This document shows, in pieces, positions 36,871 through 45,810 of a stretch of DNA of 64,000 nucleotides. The position numbers and the translations under genes are program-made. The notes beneath the pieces were generated by a model. That model ran no database searches and was not told the origin of the DNA. It was given only the letters and a program-made list of their open reading frames with translations. Source of the stretch: Dysgonomonadaceae bacterium zrk40 (GTDB taxonomy: Bacteria > Bacteroidota > Bacteroidia > Bacteroidales > Dysgonomonadaceae); contig CP070276.1 of the NCBI GenBank assembly GCA_016916535.1, positions 372,001-436,000 of the forward strand, written 5' to 3'. Every line of letters starts with the position of its first letter. Position 1 is the first letter of the stretch.

Positions 36871-37479
36871 CTATCCCTGCTCAGGTGATGAAACCTCCAC
36901 CCCGTGCAGTAGGGAGAGTTGTTCCCGCAAACGGGCGGAGAGTGACAGGCGAATGGAAAGATCCATACGGCAGCTCTCCCTGAAATCCTGTGTCCATCGG
37001 ACCGAGTCAAACTGTTTCAACACACGCATCACATCATTCAGCAACGGATATTCAAATGAGAGTGTTATAAGATCATCCACTGTTTTCTCCACGATCACTG
37101 CATTGGCTATTGCATCAGTTGCCGCCTCCTTGTATGCCCTAATCAATCCACCGGTGCCCAGCAGCGTACCACCAAAATAACGCACCACCAGGATCAGCAC
37201 ATCGGTCAGTTCTGCCGAATTGATCTGCCCCAGAATCGGCTTACCGGCCGTACCTGACGGCTCGCCGTCGTCGTTAGCACGAAACTCATCCCGCTCCCAC
37301 CCCAGCATGTAAGCCCAGCAGACATGGCGTGCATCGTAATATTTCTTGCGATGCTCCTCAACGATCTCCTTCACCTCCTCAGCGCTCTTCACCGGAACAA
37401 TGTGCGAGATAAACTTGCTCTTCTTCTCGGTGAGATACCCCTCTGCCGGATATTCAATGGTTTTGTAACTATCCTCCAT
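36871..37479 (-). CDS. YigZ/IMPACT-family protein
   Basis: This 202-residue protein has the UPF0029 (Impact) N-terminal domain: KSKFISHIVPVKSAEEVKEIVEEHRKKYYDARHVCWAY, DDGEPSGTAGKPILGQI and LVVRYFGGTLLGTGGLIRAY are diagnostic. A ferredoxin-like C-terminal domain (DUF1949) follows. The precise function is unknown; relatives are linked to translation control or proline peptide handling. A TAATTTTG box on the minus strand (37484-37491) ends only 5 bases before the start codon, so the message may be almost leaderless. Confidence 0.93.
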   Translation of the reverse strand: MEDSYKTIEYPAEGYLTEKKSKFISHIVPVKSAEEVKEIVEEHRKKYYDARHVCWAYMLGWERDEFRANDDGEPSGTAGKPILGQINSAELTDVLILVVRYFGGTLLGTGGLIRAYKEAATDAIANAVIVEKTVDDLITLSFEYPLLNDVMRVLKQFDSVRWTQDFRESCRMDLSIRLSLSARLREQLSLLHGVEVSSPEQG

Positions 37480-37491
37480 ACCCCAAAATTA

Positions 37492-38386
37492 GTAAAAAGG
37501 GTTGGAAAGGTTCTGAGATCTTCACAAAAAACTGATACAACAACCCTTCATTCGGTAAAACATTTGGTATAATCATTTTATCGCCTAATTTTTGTATGTG
37601 ATGAAATAAACAAAACGGACACAATAATTACATATTTAAGACATATATTCAATATTTAATCTTTATTATTATTTATTATATTAATATTGATATGATATAC
37701 CGTTCTGTTTAATATGTTTGTAGAATACTTTCAATTTTTTTTTATTCTATTCTTATACTTTTAATTTCAAAGCAATGGACTACACATCACGAGGCATTGT
37801 TAGAAAACCTCCAAAAAAAGATTGGATTTGCCTCCTAACTTTTAAAAAAACATATACCCCTCTCCTTCATCTAATATCTCAATGCTCAATTCCATGGAAA
37901 GGGAGAATGGCGCAATACTTCGTAAATTTTGCAGCAAGTCTATTTCAAAGTGCTCTTTATCGCGTTTGATCAAATGTATCACTCAAAATATTTGTGATAT
38001 TTTGAGCAAGAACTAATCATGAAGGATATGATTAACGGTAAGTTTTATCAATGAAAAAAAGTAACAAGAAAAAGCGGACTCAGAACCCGCCAACTAAATG
38101 CTTGAAATCCAAAAAGATTGACAGCTAAAAAAAGCCTTCCCTCGCCAGGAAAGCGAAAACTACCAAAATGAAAGCAAGCTCACAGGAAGTATCACTAAAC
38201 TAACAAAGAAAGGCGCTGCAAAGATAACAAAAACACGGTAAATTCAAACACCCACGGGTTTGGGTATAGTTAATTTTCCGGATGCCTCCGAAAGTGAAGA
38301 ATAGTAACAATTATGGTGGTGCAGTTTTAACTGTATTAAAATAGAATATTATTCCATCATTTATAAAGTATAATATCATATAATGT
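37492..38386. other. AT-rich intergenic stretch, about 900 bases
   Basis: No reading frame here is convincing. It holds a plus-strand TATGTTTG promoter-like box (37713-37720), a perfect inverted repeat CTCAAAATAT/ATATTTTGAG with a 5-base loop (37982-38006), and a minus-strand promoter plus terminator that delimit a candidate small RNA (see separate entry). Base composition is far richer in A and T than in the flanking genes and continues so through the following three genes. Confidence 0.7.
38127..38213 (-). ncRNA. candidate small RNA upstream of the peptide/GLPGLI locus
   Basis: On the minus strand a promoter TTTG (38245-38248), 18-base spacer, TATCTTTG (38219-38226) is followed about 75 bases later by an intrinsic terminator: GCTTTCC (38148-38154) pairs with GGAAGGC (38134-38140) and is followed by seven Ts (38127-38133). 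Together they delimit a transcript of about 87 bases without a start codon and sizeable frame. No known RNA family was recognised. Confidence 0.5.
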
Positions 38387-38563
38387 ATGAAAAAGTTTAA
38401 TATAAAGAAAACGATTCTGATTGCAGCATTATCATTAATTGCTTTTGCTGCAAATGCATTTTATGTTACAACTTCATGTGGTGCAACCTATAACGTAATA
38501 GGATGTGAAACTATGGAAGATGTAATAGAGACGGTAGATGCATTGGAAAGTCTTTGCCCATAA
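38387..38563 (+). CDS. small secreted cysteine-containing peptide precursor
   Basis: This 58-codon gene encodes a basic N-terminus and hydrophobic core (KKFNIKKTILIAALSLIAF) ending in a signal-peptidase site near ANA. A mature part of about 34 residues follows, FYVTTSCGATYNVIGC and then an acidic helix-like stretch ETMEDVIETVDALESLCP. Three cysteines are present (C31, C40, C57). It precedes a GLPGLI-family gene and an outer-membrane barrel gene in the same direction. I recognise no characterised family. The acidic, cysteine-bearing mature peptide looks like an exported substrate or signal, but that is inference. It is too short for most automated gene calls. Confidence 0.75.
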   Translation: MKKFNIKKTILIAALSLIAFAANAFYVTTSCGATYNVIGCETMEDVIETVDALESLCP

Positions 38564-38574
38564 GTTTATAAGAA

Positions 38575-38612
38575 AGAAGGATAAGATCCGTATATCTGGA
38601 TCTTGTCCTTCT
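38575..38612 (+). terminator. intercistronic hairpin between peptide and GLPGLI genes
   Basis: AGAAGGATAAGATCC (38575-38589) pairs with GGATCTTGTCCTTCT (38598-38612) over 15 positions with one wobble, loop of 8 bases. The following sequence GCTTTAAG is only weakly T-rich. It could be a leaky terminator or an mRNA-protecting hairpin that gives higher peptide expression than downstream gene expression. Confidence 0.65.
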
Positions 38613-38650
38613 GCTTTAAGTTAAATTGTAAAATTAAAATTTATCTTGTT

Positions 38651-39490
38651 ATGCATGAAAAAAAATTTTATCTTGTTATTGCTGTATTGGTTGTGACAAA
38701 TCTGATGTCTCAAAGAGTTTTCTCTCAAACGGTAATTGATAAAGCGGTATACCGATGCCAATACAAAAATACAACATTGAAAGATACGCTTGATGCGAAT
38801 TATTTCACTACAGACTTCATGAATTTGGATATAGGTGAAAACTCGGTTGTTTTTTACAGTTCGCGGAAAAAAGAAAAGGATGCATATAAAAGAAAAATGC
38901 AGGAAAGCGGGACTTTCGATATGAACAAGATTAAAGAATCTCCCAAAGGAGTGAATAACTACAAAGTGTATACGAATTATCCAAATGGAAAGATAACGTA
39001 CCAGGATGAACTGGTTGGACGAAGAAACAACTATTATTACGAAGAAGATTTATTGCCCATCCAATGGACTATCACATCTGAAAAGAAATTGATCTTGAAA
39101 TATAATTGCCAGAAAGCCACCTGTACTTACATGGGTCGAAATTACGAAGCTTGGTTTACAACTGAAATCCCAATTAAGTATGGACCCTATAAATTTAGAG
39201 GTTTACCAGGCCTAATCCTGAAGTTACACGATACAAATAATCATTATGTTTTTGAAGCTACAGGATTTGAAAAACTATTGACTCCTGAAGATATCATATA
39301 CGACGTTAAAGGGTTCCACAAAATATCGAAAAAAGATTTTCTTAAAATTCAATATTCCTTCGTAACAGATCCTCTCAATTTTATAGCCCAAAGTCTTGGC
39401 GTTAAAATTGAAGGCATTTCTACGCCGGGGGAGAGAAGCAAGGAAGGTATTCGATCAGATGCCTATCTACCAATAGAGTTAAGTAAATAA
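38651..39490 (+). CDS. GLPGLI family protein
   Basis: This 279-residue secreted or periplasmic protein has a signal peptide (KFYLVIAVLVVTNLMSQRVFS; cleavage near FSQ). The family-naming motif is present as GPYKFRGLPGLILKLHD. Around it are the usual TCTYMGRNYEAWFTTEIPIKYGPYKF segment and a C-terminal half of alternating strands. The family is known only from Bacteroidota and has no established function. The ATG at 38651 is preferred; a TTG further upstream lies inside the intercistronic hairpin. The next gene starts 10 bases after its stop. Confidence 0.92.
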   Translation: MHEKKFYLVIAVLVVTNLMSQRVFSQTVIDKAVYRCQYKNTTLKDTLDANYFTTDFMNLDIGENSVVFYSSRKKEKDAYKRKMQESGTFDMNKIKESPKGVNNYKVYTNYPNGKITYQDELVGRRNNYYYEEDLLPIQWTITSEKKLILKYNCQKATCTYMGRNYEAWFTTEIPIKYGPYKFRGLPGLILKLHDTNNHYVFEATGFEKLLTPEDIIYDVKGFHKISKKDFLKIQYSFVTDPLNFIAQSLGVKIEGISTPGERSKEGIRSDAYLPIELSK

Positions 39491-39500
39491 TATTTTATCT

Positions 39501-42125
39501 ATGCCTAAATATTGGGTGCTACTCCTCCTTTTCTGTTTATCCTTTCTGAATGTATGTTTGTCCCAAACAGTTAATATTGAAGGACGGATTATTGATTCTA
39601 ACACTAAAATAGGGATTAGCGGGGCATCCGTCTATATTCTTGACTTAAACGATGCAATAATAGATTATGTTTATTCTGATGAAAATGGGACTTTTAGCAT
39701 TGAATTGAATAAGAAAAGCATTGTGGATGGGCATAGCATCGTATTCTCTTATCTTGGCTACATGGAGCAAAAGAACCTGTTACGTATCTTTAAATCAAAT
39801 ACCATTATTGAATTAACACCCACGGAAATACCATTGCCGGAAGTAGAAATAATATCGCACCCCATAAAGGAGCAGGGAGATACGCTAATCTATAACGTGG
39901 CCCGGTTTAAAATGGCTCAAGATAGGAGTATCGCCGATGTTTTACGCAACATGCCGGGTATCCGGGTCACAGATGAAGGTACTATTTATTATCAGGGAGA
40001 GCCCATCAACAAATTTTATATTGAAGGTGTAGACTTGCTTGATGAAAAATATAAACTCGCCTCCAATAATTTAAAAGCTGATTACGTGGAATATGTGCAG
40101 GTATTGCAACAGCATGAACCGGTAAAGAGCCTGAGGGGTAAAACATTTGGTGAACAGGCGGCGATAAATTTGGTGCTTAATGAAGGGGCAAAACAGCGAT
40201 GGCTATTCTCGGTTGATTTTGGTGTTGGGCTGCCACTTACCCTTTGGGACAATAGGCTCATGGCTATGTCTTTTGGGAAAAGTGCTCAAAATCTAAGCAT
40301 GTATAAAAACAACAGCACCGGAGAGGATATAGCATCCGAGCTATCTTCTCCGGCAACTATTTCCGAGATTATCATAGATGCACGAATGCCAAAAGTGGAG
40401 AGAGGACTGTTTCAACCGAGCATGATATCCTCTCTCCCTATGGATAAGAAAAAATATCAATTGAATGCCTCGCACCTTATCACATCCAACCAGATCTGGA
40501 AGCTTTCTGAAGACAAAAATTTAAGATATCAAATCAGTTACTTGAAAAACAAAGAAAGGCAACAGTTGGATTCGGAAGTGTCGGCTGTTCTGGATGTTGA
40601 TTCTACATTGATTATTCAGGAATTAAAAAAGAGTAATAGTTACCAAAACAAGCTGGAGGGTGAGCTTTCTTACACCCACAATGCTGACAACTTTTATTTG
40701 AGTAATAAATTGTCTTCCAATATCATTTGGGCTGAACAACACAATCGAATTGTTACACATCAATATGACATTGAAGAAAAATATAATCTACCTCAACAAT
40801 TGTTGCGAAACGATTTTAGGATAGTTATTCCTCGAAAAAAAGGACGTCTGGAAGCGACCTCACTTACTCAGCTCGCTACTTTATCACACTTTGCATCGTT
40901 TCAGATAGGAGATGCATCTAAAACGCATCCTTATACACAAGAATATGCATTAAAAAATATGACTACTTCCAATCAGGTATCATATACCTTTCAACTTAAC
41001 AAATATCAGATAAAAAATAATATAGGAGTTGATTTTACCTCCCAGAGGTTAAACTCTCTCTCACATCCACCGGCATTAATAGATATCCTGGATCATGAAA
41101 ACGATGCGGCTTTCAAAAATATCACTTCATATGTTGAGACGCAAATGGGATACAAATCCGATAAGTTGGATTATTACTTCAATTTATTACTAAAACATTC
41201 ATCTGTAACGATACAAAATAAGGATTCGTTGCAAAACGGGTACACTTTCGTTCATTTTCTTCCTTCTGCCGGGTTAAAATATTATCCCTCTAATTGGTTG
41301 ACGCTATCCTTAAAGGGACAAGTGACGGATAATATTGCAGACATTCGAACATTATATCCTCAAACAATATTTATCAATTATAGGATCCTGAACTCTTTCA
41401 CCGGAAAACCAACACAAAGTCTTTCTCATAAATATGTATTATCTTTGATATACAGAAACCCTGTAAAAGGTTTTTTCATGGAAGGGTCAGCAGGGTATTC
41501 CATCATGAAACGTCATTTAATAAATAAAACATTCTTTATAGATGACCTTTTCCAACAAAACGAGTCACTGTTCACGAAAAATAATATTTATTCTCCCATA
41601 CTGGGAATAAGTGGATCTAAAATGTTTGGCTGGTGGAACACGAAACTCTTTTTGAATGGGTTTTATAAAGAAAGTGAGTATACATATATAGTACAAAACC
41701 GGCAAACTGATTTTTCCAGTAAATCCTATTCGATAAATTTAGGTGTGACAATACAACCCCGAAAATGGTTCAATAATGAATATGAACTGAGATATATCAA
41801 TAATATGCTTGCAGGGAACGATACAGGAAATAATAATTTTTCAACATCCTATTTTCAACACTCGCTATCCACTTACTTTTTTCCTTGCACCAATATACAA
41901 GTTGGTATAAAACAGGACCTTTTTCGCACGAAAAAGGTAAATTACTATTTCGCTAATTTTAATGTTTTATATAGATTTAAAAAGATGGATATCAGCTTGG
42001 AAATAAGAAATTTAACAAACCAGACGCATTATGTTTTTGAGAATGTCGTAGATTTCTATAAATCGCGCATTACACGTACCATGAGACCCCGGGAGATTAT
42101 GATAAAAATGAATTTAAACTTCTAA
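39501..42125 (+). CDS. outer-membrane beta-barrel protein with carboxypeptidase-regulatory-like and plug domains
   Basis: This 874-residue protein has a signal peptide (MPKYWVLLLLFCLSFLNVCLS). A CarboxypepD_reg-like Ig domain covers about residues 24-110 (VNIEGRIIDSNTKIGISGASVYIL). A TonB-plug-like region follows (DRSIADVLRNMPGIRVTDEGTIYYQGEPINKFYIEGVDLL). The rest is aromatic-rich barrel strands ending in MNLNF, a typical outer-membrane C-terminus with terminal Phe. It resembles the receptor-like proteins found beside GLPGLI genes. No TonB box is evident. With the upstream small peptide it may form an export or uptake unit for that peptide. Confidence 0.9.
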   Translation: MPKYWVLLLLFCLSFLNVCLSQTVNIEGRIIDSNTKIGISGASVYILDLNDAIIDYVYSDENGTFSIELNKKSIVDGHSIVFSYLGYMEQKNLLRIFKSNTIIELTPTEIPLPEVEIISHPIKEQGDTLIYNVARFKMAQDRSIADVLRNMPGIRVTDEGTIYYQGEPINKFYIEGVDLLDEKYKLASNNLKADYVEYVQVLQQHEPVKSLRGKTFGEQAAINLVLNEGAKQRWLFSVDFGVGLPLTLWDNRLMAMSFGKSAQNLSMYKNNSTGEDIASELSSPATISEIIIDARMPKVERGLFQPSMISSLPMDKKKYQLNASHLITSNQIWKLSEDKNLRYQISYLKNKERQQLDSEVSAVLDVDSTLIIQELKKSNSYQNKLEGELSYTHNADNFYLSNKLSSNIIWAEQHNRIVTHQYDIEEKYNLPQQLLRNDFRIVIPRKKGRLEATSLTQLATLSHFASFQIGDASKTHPYTQEYALKNMTTSNQVSYTFQLNKYQIKNNIGVDFTSQRLNSLSHPPALIDILDHENDAAFKNITSYVETQMGYKSDKLDYYFNLLLKHSSVTIQNKDSLQNGYTFVHFLPSAGLKYYPSNWLTLSLKGQVTDNIADIRTLYPQTIFINYRILNSFTGKPTQSLSHKYVLSLIYRNPVKGFFMEGSAGYSIMKRHLINKTFFIDDLFQQNESLFTKNNIYSPILGISGSKMFGWWNTKLFLNGFYKESEYTYIVQNRQTDFSSKSYSINLGVTIQPRKWFNNEYELRYINNMLAGNDTGNNNFSTSYFQHSLSTYFFPCTNIQVGIKQDLFRTKKVNYYFANFNVLYRFKKMDISLEIRNLTNQTHYVFENVVDFYKSRITRTMRPREIMIKMNLNF

Positions 42126-42471
42126 GTTCTTTATCGGTAATAGTTTCACACCTGTTTCGATTGTAGGGAACGCCGGTCCATGGAAATTTTCAGGGCTCCC
42201 CGGATTGATAATGAGCATCCAAGACACCAAAGGGCATTACACTTTTGAAATAAGCGGCCTGGAAAATACCAGAGAACCCATAGAATATATTGAATACGGC
42301 GCCCGAAAATATACCCGTACCGACCGGATAACCTTTTTGCGCACCAACGCCAAAGCATCCAATATTGGCTGGGTTCGATATTTGGAGGCAAATTCACCCA
42401 AAAAAAATGAATCGGACTTTATACCGGCGAGCGGTGGTGCGAGATATAATTTCTTGGAAAGAGATTTTTAA
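42118..42471 (+). pseudogene. 3' fragment of a second GLPGLI family gene
   Basis: From 42118 an open frame without a proper start encodes FTPVSIVGNAGPWKFSGLPG and the rest of a GLPGLI C-terminal half (LIMSIQDTKGHYTFEISGLEN onward). The signal peptide and N-terminal half are missing. It begins inside the last codons of the intact barrel gene, so a deletion probably joined the two copies. The spacing to the next, also broken, barrel gene (11 bases) copies the arrangement of the intact pair. Confidence 0.85.
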
Positions 42472-42482
42472 ACAAGTTGGTT

Positions 42483-42981
42483 ATGAGACGTATTACCGAC
42501 CTCTTTTTGTTTTTTTATGCTGTTATCTACTTCTTTAAAATCGCAAACTATGGATATAAAAGGATAGGTTAGGGATGATGCGGGCAATTTGTCGAGCGTG
42601 GTAATCACAATCACCTCTGAAGATGAAAGTGATGTGATTACCTATGCCATAACAGATAATTCAGGTAATTTCTTCCTGAAAAACGTGGATATGGCAAATG
42701 CACACTTTATTCGTGCCCGCTTGATGGGATACGCAACGCAAACAATACTGCTGGACGAGAATAAAACCGATTATTCTTTTCTTTTGGTTGAGGAGTCAAT
42801 CCAATTGAATGAAGTGTTGATAAAATCAGCCAGGATATCGGGTGTGGGAGATACTACACGCTATCTTGCATCCTCATTTGCTAAAGAAAACGACATCACA
42901 CTTGGCGACATCATTAAACGTATGCCCGGGTTCCACGTTCTTCGAAATGGAGTTTTCGCCTATCAGCGCAAAATCTATTGA
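42483..42981 (+). pseudogene. broken 5' part of a second regulatory-domain/barrel gene
   Basis: The ATG at 42483 opens a signal-peptide-like frame that loses phase at a run of seven Ts (42510-42516). In the shifted frame the sequence continues MLLSTSLKSQTMDIKG, then an in-frame TAG (42565-42567), then VRDDAGNLSSVVITI, a regulatory-like domain and the start of a plug (GDIIKRMPGFHVLRNG). It stops at 42981 where the intact copy continues with the barrel. It thus has a frameshift, a nonsense codon and a large 3' deletion. Confidence 0.85.
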
Positions 42982-43151
42982 ATAAAAAAAGTTTTGTTTT
43001 CTTTCTTATACAGACATGATGTCGATAGAGCGGAGATATCAAATTCGACCATTTTCACTGTTATTTTCTGGGATAACATCATTTTAAGTGTGTCCTGATG
43101 AGGGTGCTGGCGGTGTAGCGTATCACCGAGAAAAGAAGACAGTGGTGAACC

Positions 43152-43183
43152 AAAAAGGGGGTTTCGATCGACACCCCCTTTTT
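43152..43183. terminator. bidirectional intrinsic terminator
   Basis: AAAAAGGGGGT (43152-43162) pairs perfectly with ACCCCCTTTTT (43173-43183) around a 10-base loop. It has A-runs on one side and T-runs on the other, so it can end transcription from both strands. It separates the AT-rich island from nrdJ, 72 bases beyond the nrdJ stop codon. The remainder of 42982-43254 shows no gene. Confidence 0.85.
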
Positions 43184-43254
43184 GAATTATCGGTTTCCTC
43201 TTTTAAGGAACAGAATTGATCTTTTCACCGCTCTATAAGTGAATCATGAAGATT

Positions 43255-45810
43255 TTACCCGCACTTGGAAGCACCGCAGTTGCGGCATTTCAGACACCCC
43301 TCCTCGTAGACCAGCGACTCGTGCCCGCAAACGGGGCACTTCTGTCCCTTGGCTTCGGTTTCGTTGGGCAGATATTTTTTCAGTGCCCGCTCCACACCGT
43401 TCTTCCAGGTGTTGATGGTCTCGCTGTCCAGCTCAAGACCCGACACCAGCTTGATCACCTGGTCGATGGGCATGCCGTAGCGCAACACTCCTGAGATCAG
43501 TTTGGCATAATTCCAGAACTCCGGGTTGAACTTTCCGTCCAGCCCCTCGATGGTCACCTTGTAGCCCCGCCGGTTCTGGAACTGGAAGTCGTAATGCTTC
43601 CTTCCGTCGTTGTCGTAAGCCTTGATGATCTTGCCGGTGGTGACATTCTTAGGGATCATGATGCCATCATCCTCGTCGTTGATACCGGTAAAGATCTCAT
43701 AGGGACGGCCGTTGAGCAATCCGATGAAGGCGATCCACTTCTCCTTGTTATTCTGGAACTTGATCACATCGGCCTCAAGTTCGATGGGTCGCGAGGTGAC
43801 GATCTGGGGCATCTCGTAACAGTCGTCATCCTTCTCCTTGCCCTTCTCCTCTTTCTCCTCCTTGTCGTTCGCGATCAGCACCCCGGCGCGAGAGCCGTCA
43901 CGGTATACGGTACATCCCTTGCAGCCGCTCTTCCAGGCTTCCATGTAGAGCTCGCCCACCAGCTCTTCCGTCACATCGGCAGGCAGGTTGATGGTGACGC
44001 TGATGGAGTGGTCCACCCACTTCTGCACCCGTCCCTGCATCTGCACCTTCTGCAGCCAGTCCACATCGTTCGAGGTGGCCTTGTAGTAGGGCGACTTCTC
44101 CACCATCTCCTCCACCTCCTGCTTGCTGTAGCGCCTGGTGGTGGAGTAACCGTTTGCTTCCATCCAGGTGACAAACTTGTGGTGGAACACGGTGTACTCC
44201 TCCCAGGAGTCGCCGTTCACATCCACGAAATCTATCTTCACATCCTTGTCGCTGGGGTTCACCTTGCGACGGCGCGTGTAGACCGGCAGGAAGACCGGCT
44301 CGATGCCGGAGGTGGTCTGCGACATCAGGCTGGTGGTGCCGGTGGGGGCGATGGTGAGACAGGCGATGTTGCGTCTGCCATACTTCATCATGTCTTCATA
44401 CAGCTGATTGTCTGCCTCTTTCAGGCGAAGTATGAAAGGATTGTTTTTCTCCCTTTCAGCATCGAAGATCTCGAAGGCCCCCCTTTCGCGGGCCATCTCC
44501 ACCGACGAACGGTAGGCGTTGAGCGCCACGGCGCGATGCACCTGCTCCGAGAAATCGTTCCCCTCGTCGCTGCCGTAACGAATGCCCAGTGCAGCCAGCA
44601 TATCCCCCTCGGCAGTGATGCCCACGCCGGTACGGCGTCCTTGCAGGGTCTTTTTCCTTATCTTCAGCCAGAGGTTGCGTTCTGATGTTTTTACCTCTTC
44701 CGACTCGGGATCGGAATCGATCTTGTTCAGGATCAGTTCAATCTTCTCCGACTCCAGGTCGATGATGTCATCCATGATGCGCTGTGCCAGCTGCACATGC
44801 TTGCCAAAAAGCTCGAAATCGAACCGGGCATCTTCACGGAAGGGATTCACCACGTAGGAGTAGAGGTTGATTGCAAGCAGGCGGCAGCTGTCGTAGGGAC
44901 AGAGCGGAATCTCACCGCAGGGGTTGGTAGAGACGGTCTTGAAGCCCAGGTCGGCATAACAGTCGGGCACCGATTCACGGATGATTGTATCCCAGAAGAG
45001 TACCCCCGGCTCGGCAGATCGCCAGGCGTTGTGGATGATCTTGTCCCACAATCCCTTCGCGTCAATGGTCTTCTCGTATTTCGGCTTGTCGGCATCGATG
45101 GGGTACTTCTGCAAATAAGGCTTGCCTGTGGCAGCCGCCTCCATGAAGTCATCATCGATCTTCACCGAGATGTTGGCACCGGTCACCTTCCCCTGCTCCA
45201 GCTTGGCATCGATAAAGTTCTCCGAGTCGGGGTGCTTGATCGAGACGCTGAGCATCAGTGCCCCGCGGCGACCATCCTGTGCAACCTCACGTGTGGAGTT
45301 GGAGTAACGCTCCATGAAGGGTACCAGCCCCGTGGAGGTGAGGGCCGAGTTCTTCACAGGCGATCCCTTGGGGCGGATGTGCGAGAGGTCATGCCCCACC
45401 CCGCCGCGGCGCTTCATGAGCTGCACCTGCTCCTCATCCACACGGATGATCGCTCCGTAGGAGTCGGCATTGCCATCCATCCCAATCACGAAGCAGTTGG
45501 AGAGTGATGCCACCTGGAAGTCGTTACCGATGCCGGTCATGGGGCTCCCCTGCGGAATGATATATTGGAAACGGTCGAACAGGTCGAACAGCTCCTGCTC
45601 ACTCAGTGGATTGGCGTATTTCTGTTCGATGCGTGCCACCTCACTCGCCAGGCGGTGGTGCATATCAGCAGGGGTCTTCTCGTAGATCTCCCCCTGGCTG
45701 TCTTTCAGCGCGTACTTGCTCACCCATACCTTGGCGGCTAGCTCATCGCCCTTAAAATATTCCAACGAGGCCTGGTAAGCTTCGTCGAAAGTGTATCTCT
45801 TTTTTTTCAT
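43255..45810 (-). CDS. nrdJ: adenosylcobalamin-dependent ribonucleotide reductase (class II)
   Basis: This 851-residue oxygen-independent enzyme reduces ribonucleotides to deoxyribonucleotides. It has an N-terminal region (RYTFDEAYQASLEYFKGDELAAKVW), the catalytic core with ASLSNCFVIG, NPCGEIPLCPYDSCRL (active-site cysteine and glutamate), and a PTGTTSLMSQTTSGIEPVF loop. A TSCPVC-type redox/zinc ribbon tail (CPVCGHESLVYEEGCLKCRNCG) ends it. No intein is evident. No B12 riboswitch was recognised upstream. It gives dNTP synthesis under anaerobic conditions. Confidence 0.96.
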   Translation of the reverse strand: MKKKRYTFDEAYQASLEYFKGDELAAKVWVSKYALKDSQGEIYEKTPADMHHRLASEVARIEQKYANPLSEQELFDLFDRFQYIIPQGSPMTGIGNDFQVASLSNCFVIGMDGNADSYGAIIRVDEEQVQLMKRRGGVGHDLSHIRPKGSPVKNSALTSTGLVPFMERYSNSTREVAQDGRRGALMLSVSIKHPDSENFIDAKLEQGKVTGANISVKIDDDFMEAAATGKPYLQKYPIDADKPKYEKTIDAKGLWDKIIHNAWRSAEPGVLFWDTIIRESVPDCYADLGFKTVSTNPCGEIPLCPYDSCRLLAINLYSYVVNPFREDARFDFELFGKHVQLAQRIMDDIIDLESEKIELILNKIDSDPESEEVKTSERNLWLKIRKKTLQGRRTGVGITAEGDMLAALGIRYGSDEGNDFSEQVHRAVALNAYRSSVEMARERGAFEIFDAEREKNNPFILRLKEADNQLYEDMMKYGRRNIACLTIAPTGTTSLMSQTTSGIEPVFLPVYTRRRKVNPSDKDVKIDFVDVNGDSWEEYTVFHHKFVTWMEANGYSTTRRYSKQEVEEMVEKSPYYKATSNDVDWLQKVQMQGRVQKWVDHSISVTINLPADVTEELVGELYMEAWKSGCKGCTVYRDGSRAGVLIANDKEEKEEKGKEKDDDCYEMPQIVTSRPIELEADVIKFQNNKEKWIAFIGLLNGRPYEIFTGINDEDDGIMIPKNVTTGKIIKAYDNDGRKHYDFQFQNRRGYKVTIEGLDGKFNPEFWNYAKLISGVLRYGMPIDQVIKLVSGLELDSETINTWKNGVERALKKYLPNETEAKGQKCPVCGHESLVYEEGCLKCRNCGASKCG

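Follow-up and report, generated by a model that had tools for sequence, protein, structure and literature searches.

The window examined here, a stretch of 64,000 nucleotides from Dysgonomonadaceae bacterium zrk40 (GenBank assembly GCA_016916535.1, contig CP070276.1, positions 372,001 to 436,000 of the forward strand), carries a cassette of three same-strand genes. These encode, in order, a peptide precursor of 58 residues, a protein of the GLPGLI family and a TonB-dependent-transporter-type outer-membrane barrel. The three frames had been proposed by a sequence-only reading of the window, and all are open at the coordinates in Table 1. The three-gene observation is confirmed as real and beyond chance by a second peptide of the same build in the same genome and by recurrence in other genera. 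Profile comparison also confirmed that the peptide is a member of a Bacteroidota family missing from Pfam and NCBIfam. In the explanation preferred here, which is offered tentatively, the cassette would comprise a microcin-like secreted peptide and its cognate periplasmic GLPGLI binding or immunity partner, with the barrel as an outer-membrane port. Two other readings, export carriage and uptake or sensing, are close rivals. With this pairing the widespread, function-less GLPGLI family gains a first concrete and testable partner, and three separate things would be linked: the bowl domain of PNGase F-II described as 'unknown', the GLPGLI proteins and, more remotely, the fold of LolA. No paper joining GLPGLI with a peptide was found in open-licence PubMed Central. 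The nearest prior art is a passage of PMC8939145, in which a related family of outer-membrane barrels is noted to accompany graspetide loci and is considered a possible exporter of their product.

Peptide family upstream of GLPGLI genes

The precursor has a Sec-type signal at about residues 1–24, as judged from its sequence, followed by a mature part of 34 residues (FYVTTSCG...ESLCP) with three cysteines, Cys31, Cys40 and Cys57. The core common to the family consists of a [TS]xCG motif, a hairpin, a helix and a Cys. No Pfam or NCBIfam family was found above its cut-off for the window peptide and ten relatives. The structural model has a modest mean predicted local distance difference test (pLDDT) score of 70, about 75–86 in the mature part, and places a hairpin at residues 24–28/34–38 and a helix at residues 43–55; a fold search with this model gave no match at E <= 0.001. 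The same genome encodes a second peptide of this build 65 bases before another GLPGLI gene (L005:10504-10698; loci and genomes are cited below by L and G numbers). The only near copy found of the window's peptide and GLPGLI gene is in the sister species G530, where both are identical.

Among 80 named GLPGLI loci picked on GLPGLI similarity alone, upstream peptides were also found in Sinomicrobium, Hymenobacter, Raineya, Prevotella conceptionensis and several Bacteroidales, and some peptide was recognised in 19 of the 80. The sequence-only reading was to be abandoned if homologous short frames did not occur upstream of other GLPGLI genes; they were sought, they occur in other genera, and the idea survived. 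It is extremely improbable that the peptide is a chance open frame beside an unrelated gene. At 58 codons the frame is short, and for the window copy no close relative is informative, but the mature part and its constant place are conserved across families of the phylum, which rules this explanation out.

Candidate peptides were defined as frames with a signal and at least two Cys, or with a double-glycine leader and at least one Cys, ending at most 400 bases upstream, a rule that was shaped on the named loci. Such a candidate preceded 22 of 91 operon-first GLPGLI genes compared with 5 of the 456 remaining genes at these loci. The later set of loci, L161–L278, gave 8/130 and 8/743 (odds ratio 6, p 9e-4), and the pooled data, with the window and a few further loci, gave 34/227 and 13/1264. 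The rule is loose: it lets in false candidates, among which we would place those of L046, L054, L112 and L197 as apparent chance frames, and it overlooks certain leaders. A profile of seven peptides from the earlier loci was also run against the 9,072 small open reading frames (ORFs) of the later set. The best four matches (E <= 0.0036) all lay before GLPGLI genes, and the next two were in L220 (E 0.065), with no GLPGLI behind it, and in L267 (E 0.093), before GLPGLI. Three of the five GLPGLI-adjacent matches of this set (L214, L258 and L267) were already known from the phylum genome search.

A profile of the mature part only, A7, was built from 14 peptides met beside GLPGLI and may miss other contexts. 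It matched 28 of 78 genomes of the genus of G270 at 33 places (E up to 0.01), and 3 of 39 genomes of the window's genus at 4 places. A GLPGLI gene lay downstream on the same strand at all 37 places in these 117 genomes of two genera; 33 of the places are newly fetched loci checked by script, and the others are L160 and L325–L327. Five of the 37 are members of A7 (two in G000, the others in G006, G270 and G072), and that of G530 is identical to one of them. The gap between peptide and GLPGLI genes was 16–166 bases in 30/33 loci with the peptide frame re-found from its start codon. When A7 was applied to 25 named genomes to which the earlier loci had led, 11 were matched, comprising four already known, six of Chryseobacterium and one of Epilithonimonas hominis, and all seven new matches adjoin GLPGLI. 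A Sec-type pair is present in Chryseobacterium gambrini DSM 18014. By script the GLPGLI gene was next to the peptide in ten of the 11, the eleventh being the known Sinomicrobium site at a contig end (168 bp). From these matches and from the name of the leader family described below, we infer that the genus of G270 (g32) is Chryseobacterium.

Wider searches showed that the peptide is rare. At E up to 0.05, the first peptide profile had matches in 11 of the 395 genomes sampled across the phylum, and those of G000, G356, G270 and G072 lie before GLPGLI. The other seven (G100, G121, G136, G229, G265, G320 and G335) had no GLPGLI gene in the stretch examined and were taken as chance matches from frame length, stops or a partial match. 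In a search of 395 class genomes, matches to the mature profile were confined to four (G000, G072, G250 and G333), all of them contributors to the profile and none new. GLPGLI was found in 15 of 72,556 plasmid records, and the G483-type peptide in none of them.

Several loci hold more than one pair. In L070, three peptides are each followed by their own GLPGLI gene, with three more GLPGLI genes lacking a peptide and one barrel. L058 has a single barrel, three GLPGLI genes that are each paired with a double-glycine peptide and, where the contig ends, a fragment of GLPGLI.

Leader types of the precursors

The peptides of L158 and L160 have a double-glycine-type leader and not a signal, and match the NCBIfam model NF047798 (leader_Chryseo, 'bacteriocin-like protein') with scores of 31.6 and 26.0 against a cut-off of 23.5. 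A mature-only profile of 12 Sec-type peptides was searched against 19,561 small ORFs of 281 loci, and its only non-seed matches were these two double-glycine peptides (E 5.7e-7 and 3.4e-6; next match 1.8). In the genus of G270, a nearly identical core was found behind either leader (for example L282 and L289). The window peptide has no double-glycine leader and no such NCBIfam match; its signal is Sec-type by eye.

On a GLPGLI tree of 37 pairs, 14 peptides are double-glycine, 22 are Sec and one is undecided, six of the leader labels having been assigned by eye. The starred branches of this tree force at least two switches of leader; the tree was built by a quick method and contains long branches, and the switch rests on nodes of 98–99% around L309, L298, L289 and L304. 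It is unusual for leaders to be swapped on the same mature peptide, and this points to a decisive event after the inner membrane. Over all pairs, peptide and GLPGLI distances are strongly correlated (Mantel r 0.91, 0 of 5000 permutations), a result that co-inheritance alone would also give.

Double-glycine peptides also precede GLPGLI in L051, L058, L085 and L116. The mature profile does not match them and they may represent further families; that of L085 scores below the TIGR04149 cut-off. The double-glycine bacteriocin-like precursors (NF047798 and TIGR04149) have a leader in common with part of the family, as in L158 and L160, whereas the window peptide is Sec-type and the mature domain of its family is not in these models. 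To our knowledge the bacteroidetocins, which are mentioned in a passage of PMC10352776, have no known GLPGLI partner. They are likewise small secreted peptides of Bacteroidales, and the likeness drawn here is one of description.

GLPGLI protein and its predicted fold

The second gene encodes a member of the GLPGLI family (TIGR01200; PF09697), whose Pfam description reads 'unknown function'. Searches with positions 38654-39487, that is, without the start Met, gave E 1.3e-58 and 198.5 bits for TIGR01200 (cut-off 50), and the protein passes the Pfam cut-offs of both Porph_ging (PF09697) and the PNGase F-II N-terminal domain (PF22252). Residues W138, A155, G161, R162, G177, K180 and L184-P185-G186 are invariant in 69 sequences.

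The AlphaFold2 model, made with 69 sequences, has a mean pLDDT of 90.5. Foldseek placed PNGase F-II-type enzyme chains first (2.8e-10), followed by LolA3 of P. gingivalis (7.6e-5), LolA (3.5e-4) and VioE (1e-3), with LolA/LolB matches ranging from 7.6e-5 to 8.1e-4. The GLPGLI sequence profile also matches PNGF-II (2.8e-4). GLPGLI is thus predicted to have the bowl fold of the PNGase F-II N-terminal domain and to be distantly LolA-like. The NBL domain of PNGase F-II (PF22252; PDB 4r4x, 4r4z and 7zgn) is both a sequence match above cut-off and the best fold match, but in PNGase F-II it is fused to a deglycosylase, unlike GLPGLI. LolA and LolB each have a periplasmic hydrophobic bowl. In the fold search these carriers match GLPGLI at TM-scores (template modelling scores) below 0.4, so that any relation is distant, and no LolA family is among the Pfam or NCBIfam matches of the window GLPGLI. 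A passage of PMC9522356 calls the structure of the NBL bowl domain unique and its function unknown, and states that its removal left the enzyme unaffected. The GLPGLI passages of PMC8757827, PMC5771137 and PMC9603813 make no tie to peptides.

Hairpin between the peptide and GLPGLI genes

A hairpin separating the peptide and GLPGLI genes recurs across loci. In the window, the minimum free energy of positions 38561-38650 is -28.6 kcal/mol (z -7.8), and none of 200 shuffles was as stable; the hairpin has no Rfam match. Among 37 loci, the 113 bases from the peptide stop reached z <= -2 in 27 and z <= -3 in 22, with a mean of -3.1. Other same-strand junctions of like spacing reached z <= -2 in 60 of 185 cases (mean -1.3), and other junctions before GLPGLI did so in 12 of 35. 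Many of the 37 loci are close kin; when 12 lineages, picked by eye, were each represented by a single row, 9/12 reached z -3 compared with 37/185 controls (p 1.3e-4). Such hairpins can act as partial terminators or as mRNA stabilisers, and in either role this one could lead to the peptide being made in excess.

Outer-membrane barrel and neighbouring genes

The barrel matches CarbopepD_reg_2 at 33.0 bits (cut-off 32.2). Its plug match (PF07715, 15.6 bits) is below the cut-off of 23.9, and residues of the plug region are conserved in 37 relatives. A profile of these 37 matched the N-terminal domain of SusC (1.1e-7) and the C-terminal strands of the pyoverdine receptor FpvA (2.8e-4), which relates the barrel by sequence to solved TonB-dependent receptors. 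In 51 of the 80 named loci such a barrel begins no more than 5 kb away (in one of them on the opposite strand only), and 18 of the 19 loci that have a recognised peptide have one nearby.

The sequence-only reading suggested that GLPGLI and the barrel together handle the peptide. The pairing of peptide and GLPGLI stands, and gene order, pairing and the predicted fold point to handling of the peptide by GLPGLI. The barrel, in contrast, is optional, and GLPGLI is the only constant partner. As an obligatory third member the barrel was rejected for the Chryseobacterium-like loci, where it accompanies 0/15 pairs.

One locus joins GLPGLI with maturation and export genes. In L116:2790-12836, a single row of genes consists of a barrel, a double-glycine precursor (by eye), GLPGLI, a TIGR04148 radical S-adenosylmethionine (SAM) maturase, a TIGR04150 protein, a C39-type ATP-binding cassette (ABC) exporter and an HlyD-like protein. 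By this gene content, the GLPGLI gene lies inside a cluster for a ribosomally synthesized and post-translationally modified peptide (RiPP).

GLPGLI genes without a peptide

Of 395 genomes sampled from the phylum, 129 carry GLPGLI, frequently with more than one copy. For one peptide-linked GLPGLI, close relatives were studied in the 30 of the 54 matches listed that have a locus (52–100% identity). Eighteen have an upstream peptide (17 at E up to 1e-3, and L388 at 0.0044), and L372 and L374 have a peptide frame by genome search whose start codon was not recognised. L361 and L368 have no peptide and a broken GLPGLI frame. The other eight have an unbroken GLPGLI and no upstream peptide, and their genomes are without any peptide match, as expected of orphan immunity genes.

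Arrays of several GLPGLI genes with no barrel are present in L056, L075, L080 and L084 and look like orphan partner genes; that of L056 adjoins aspartyl-protease and PDZ-like proteins.

Proposed function and alternatives

In the favoured scheme, the precursor would cross the inner membrane by Sec in the window species and by a peptidase-ABC exporter in other species. The mature peptide would fold as a beta-hairpin and a helix tied by a Cys31–Cys57 disulfide, and the bowl of the cognate GLPGLI would bind it in the periplasm. The barrel, where present, would serve as the outer-membrane port. The purpose would be antagonism, with the peptide as a microcin-like toxin and GLPGLI as the producer's sequestering periplasmic immunity protein, and the hairpin would let the peptide be made in excess over GLPGLI. 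Antagonism is favoured by gene order, leader type, one-to-one pairs, orphans and the mobility of the cassette. If the peptides are toxins, the cassette would be a new kind of Bacteroidota antagonism cassette with its immunity protein.

Several results weigh against this scheme, among them the abundance of GLPGLI genes that lack a peptide, the presence of a barrel and the slowness with which the peptide changes. No candidate peptide was found for 193 of the 227 operon-first GLPGLI genes, and in family f30 a peptide was seen by eye at only 4 of 52 GLPGLI genes. Peptide-free genes being the majority, peptide immunity cannot be the sole role of the GLPGLI family. Seven of the eight orphans share their upstream gene and are probably one lineage. 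Immunity leaves the barrel unexplained, and no such barrel was found within about 5 kb in any of the 15 Chryseobacterium-like loci L315–L329 (in L324 the peptide frame was not re-found). Toxin and immunity pairs often diversify jointly; within the 14 double-glycine pairs the correlation of peptide and GLPGLI distances is r 0.06, and mean identity is 68% for the mature peptide and 71% for GLPGLI, so that the peptide changes hardly faster. The likeness to LolA is distant, with TM-scores of 0.23–0.38 when normalised by model length, and VioE is nearly as good a match. Export machinery is scarce, as a full-length peptidase-ABC exporter was counted in 3 of 215 loci and a radical SAM maturase of the L116 type in 2 of 215 (weaker ABC matches uncounted).

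A somewhat less probable reading is that GLPGLI acts as a LolA-like secretion carrier, which collects the mature peptide on the periplasmic side and delivers it to the barrel or some other port; the peptide may then be a toxin, a signal or a surface component. The distant LolA likeness of the fold and the adjacency of the two genes are consistent with such a carrier, as is the need of Sec-type precursors, which stop in the periplasm, for an exit through the outer membrane. The frequency of barrels near GLPGLI, particularly at peptide loci, fits as well, and related barrels are predicted to export graspetides in the passage of PMC8939145 cited above. Against a carrier, eight intact GLPGLI relatives persist in genomes with no detectable peptide, and the Chryseobacterium-like loci have no barrel beside the pair. 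Plugged barrels of the TonB-dependent type are, moreover, importers in known examples.

Import is central to another reading, unlikely and ranked just below the carrier, in which a secreted peptide (a carrier of metal or ligand, or a pheromone) returns through the barrel and GLPGLI is the periplasmic binding protein. Genomes that have GLPGLI and a barrel but no peptide would then exploit the peptides of other cells, and if the peptides are signals or ligand carriers, a new uptake route would be at hand. The barrel is related to siderophore receptors, and GLPGLI-barrel pairs without a recognised peptide are common. A link to sensing is suggested by tables of response-regulator effects or targets, in which two GLPGLI genes are listed for P. 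gingivalis (in the part of PMC8757827 concerned) and five for Riemerella (likewise in PMC9603813). Among the 80 named loci a kinase was found in 15 and a regulator in 16, one kind each; a HisKA histidine kinase of about 485 aa and a 227-aa regulator of the OmpR type lie near GLPGLI-barrel pairs in L057:3676-9359 and in 14 further named loci. None of the kinase or regulator loci is among the 19 with a peptide (for the kinase, chance 0.011), which indicates that the sensor accompanies peptide-free loci. The pair is also often without a barrel, and the peptide has no metal-ligand pattern beyond its Cys.

It is improbable that the peptide is never released and serves GLPGLI, or a complex of GLPGLI and barrel, as a small subunit with a structural or chaperone role, kept in the periplasm perhaps by way of a Cys that many GLPGLI proteins have in common. 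Strict adjacency speaks for a subunit, as does Cys152 of GLPGLI, whose conservation in alignment A1 (14 sequences) is 90% or higher. Against it, Cys152 is not among the nearly invariant positions of alignment A4 (69 sequences), many members have a double-glycine leader, which is of the secretion type, the majority of GLPGLI proteins lack a partner gene of this sort at their side, and the hairpin suggests unequal amounts.

A broader and doubtful proposal is that GLPGLI proteins are periplasmic peptide-recognition proteins throughout the phylum. Each would use a LolA-like bowl to recognise a particular class of secreted mini-peptide, would act on the mature form whatever the inner-membrane route, and would share barrels with others. 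Such a layer of peptide trafficking or immunity in Bacteroidota may have gone unseen, the peptides being too small for gene callers and many of the partners being encoded elsewhere or already lost.

Position and mobility of the cassette

The features of the cassette and its surroundings are listed in Table 1. The cassette lies in an AT-rich island, as had been claimed, with a GC content of 0.29–0.42 in 500-base windows over 37.5–43.0 kb and mostly 0.5–0.6 outside.

Table 1. Features of the three-gene cassette and its surroundings (window coordinates).
Feature	Position	Strand	Basis and remarks
Peptide precursor gene	38387..38563	+	Open frame; profile family with members upstream of GLPGLI; 58 aa, modelled hairpin and helix
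Intercistronic RNA hairpin between peptide and GLPGLI genes	38575..38612	+	Folding z against shuffles; 16-bp stem and 6-nt loop
GLPGLI family gene (TIGR01200)	38651..39490	+	TIGR01200, PF09697 and PF22252 above cut-offs; Sec-type signal by eye
TonB-dependent-transporter-type outer-membrane barrel gene	39501..42125	+	Pfam and profile of 37 relatives; 874 aa; N-terminal carboxypeptidase-regulatory-like domain, then plug-like region
Remnant of divergent second GLPGLI gene, C-terminal part	42163..42471	+	TIGR01200, E 3.6e-4 over model positions 178-226
Second barrel gene, remnant with the N-terminal domain and the beginning of the plug-like region	42589..42981	+	CarbopepD_reg_2; barrel-profile match
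Recently exchanged segment with the whole cassette	36969..43314	.	One mismatch against sister species G530; flanked by a UPF0029 (YigZ-type) gene on one side and a ribonucleotide reductase gene on the other (Pfam)

A decayed second copy of the last two genes had also been claimed. Broken remnants of both genes do exist, but they belong to a divergent paralogue and not to a duplicate. The GLPGLI remnant is only 40% identical to the intact protein over residues 173-230, and a recent duplication as the source of 42163-42981 was rejected on this ground. The barrel remnant matches CarbopepD_reg_2 with E 6.2e-7 and 29.8 bits, under the model cut-off.

The cassette is patchy, recently transferred and decaying. 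From 36969 to 43314 a single base (37722) differs from G530, while the flanks are about 69–86% identical per 250 bp and about 80% overall; G530 is a draft genome of about 240 contigs, and a chimeric contig could lie behind the near-identical island. The end of a 93% identical barrel is present at the same site in G028, at a contig edge. In 9 of 29 relatives (G021, G016, G009, G006, G024, G018, G023, G013 and G010) the flanking genes are about 7–232 bases apart with no cassette; in the other 20 the first flanking gene is further off or outside the fetched flank. The proposal that the gene set is gained and lost agrees with this near-identity between divergent flanks, with the empty sites and with the broken GLPGLI frames of relatives.

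The gap between the UPF0029 and ribonucleotide reductase genes (37479-43255 in the window; L331–L359 in the relatives), near-empty in those nine and wider or uncovered in the rest, may be an insertion hot spot. Just upstream of the second GLPGLI cluster of the window's genome is a transposase-like gene in two split frames (L005:8009-9106; identity by eye).

Related gene clusters and minor observations

Graspetide and radical SAM RiPP clusters of Bacteroidota contain GLPGLI in L116 and, by gene look, in L237, whereas the island of the window has no maturase or exporter gene. No radical SAM maturase was found beside the precursor among the forward-strand frames scanned in the island, which comprise the peptide, GLPGLI and barrel genes and the remnants. 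The minus strand of L237:1779-8640 carries GLPGLI with a double-glycine peptide, an ATP-grasp-like frame (by eye) and matches to an ABC exporter and an HlyD-like protein, and by gene look alone it looks like a graspetide-type cluster. In L279:1-6004, also on the minus strand, a Sec-type peptide, GLPGLI and an 878-aa barrel-like frame are followed by a relative of the L116 radical SAM maturase (E 2e-53). A 410-aa protein with a C39 peptidase domain (L051:10276-11505) lies directly behind a cluster of double-glycine peptide, GLPGLI and barrel.

Two peptides before GLPGLI in L053:5319-5846 have a mature part with no Cys and TSDG in place of TSCG, and by their sequence the disulfide may not be essential. 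Upstream of GLPGLI in two genomes (L162 and L164) are mutually similar secreted proteins of 116 and 123 aa, perhaps another class of GLPGLI partner.

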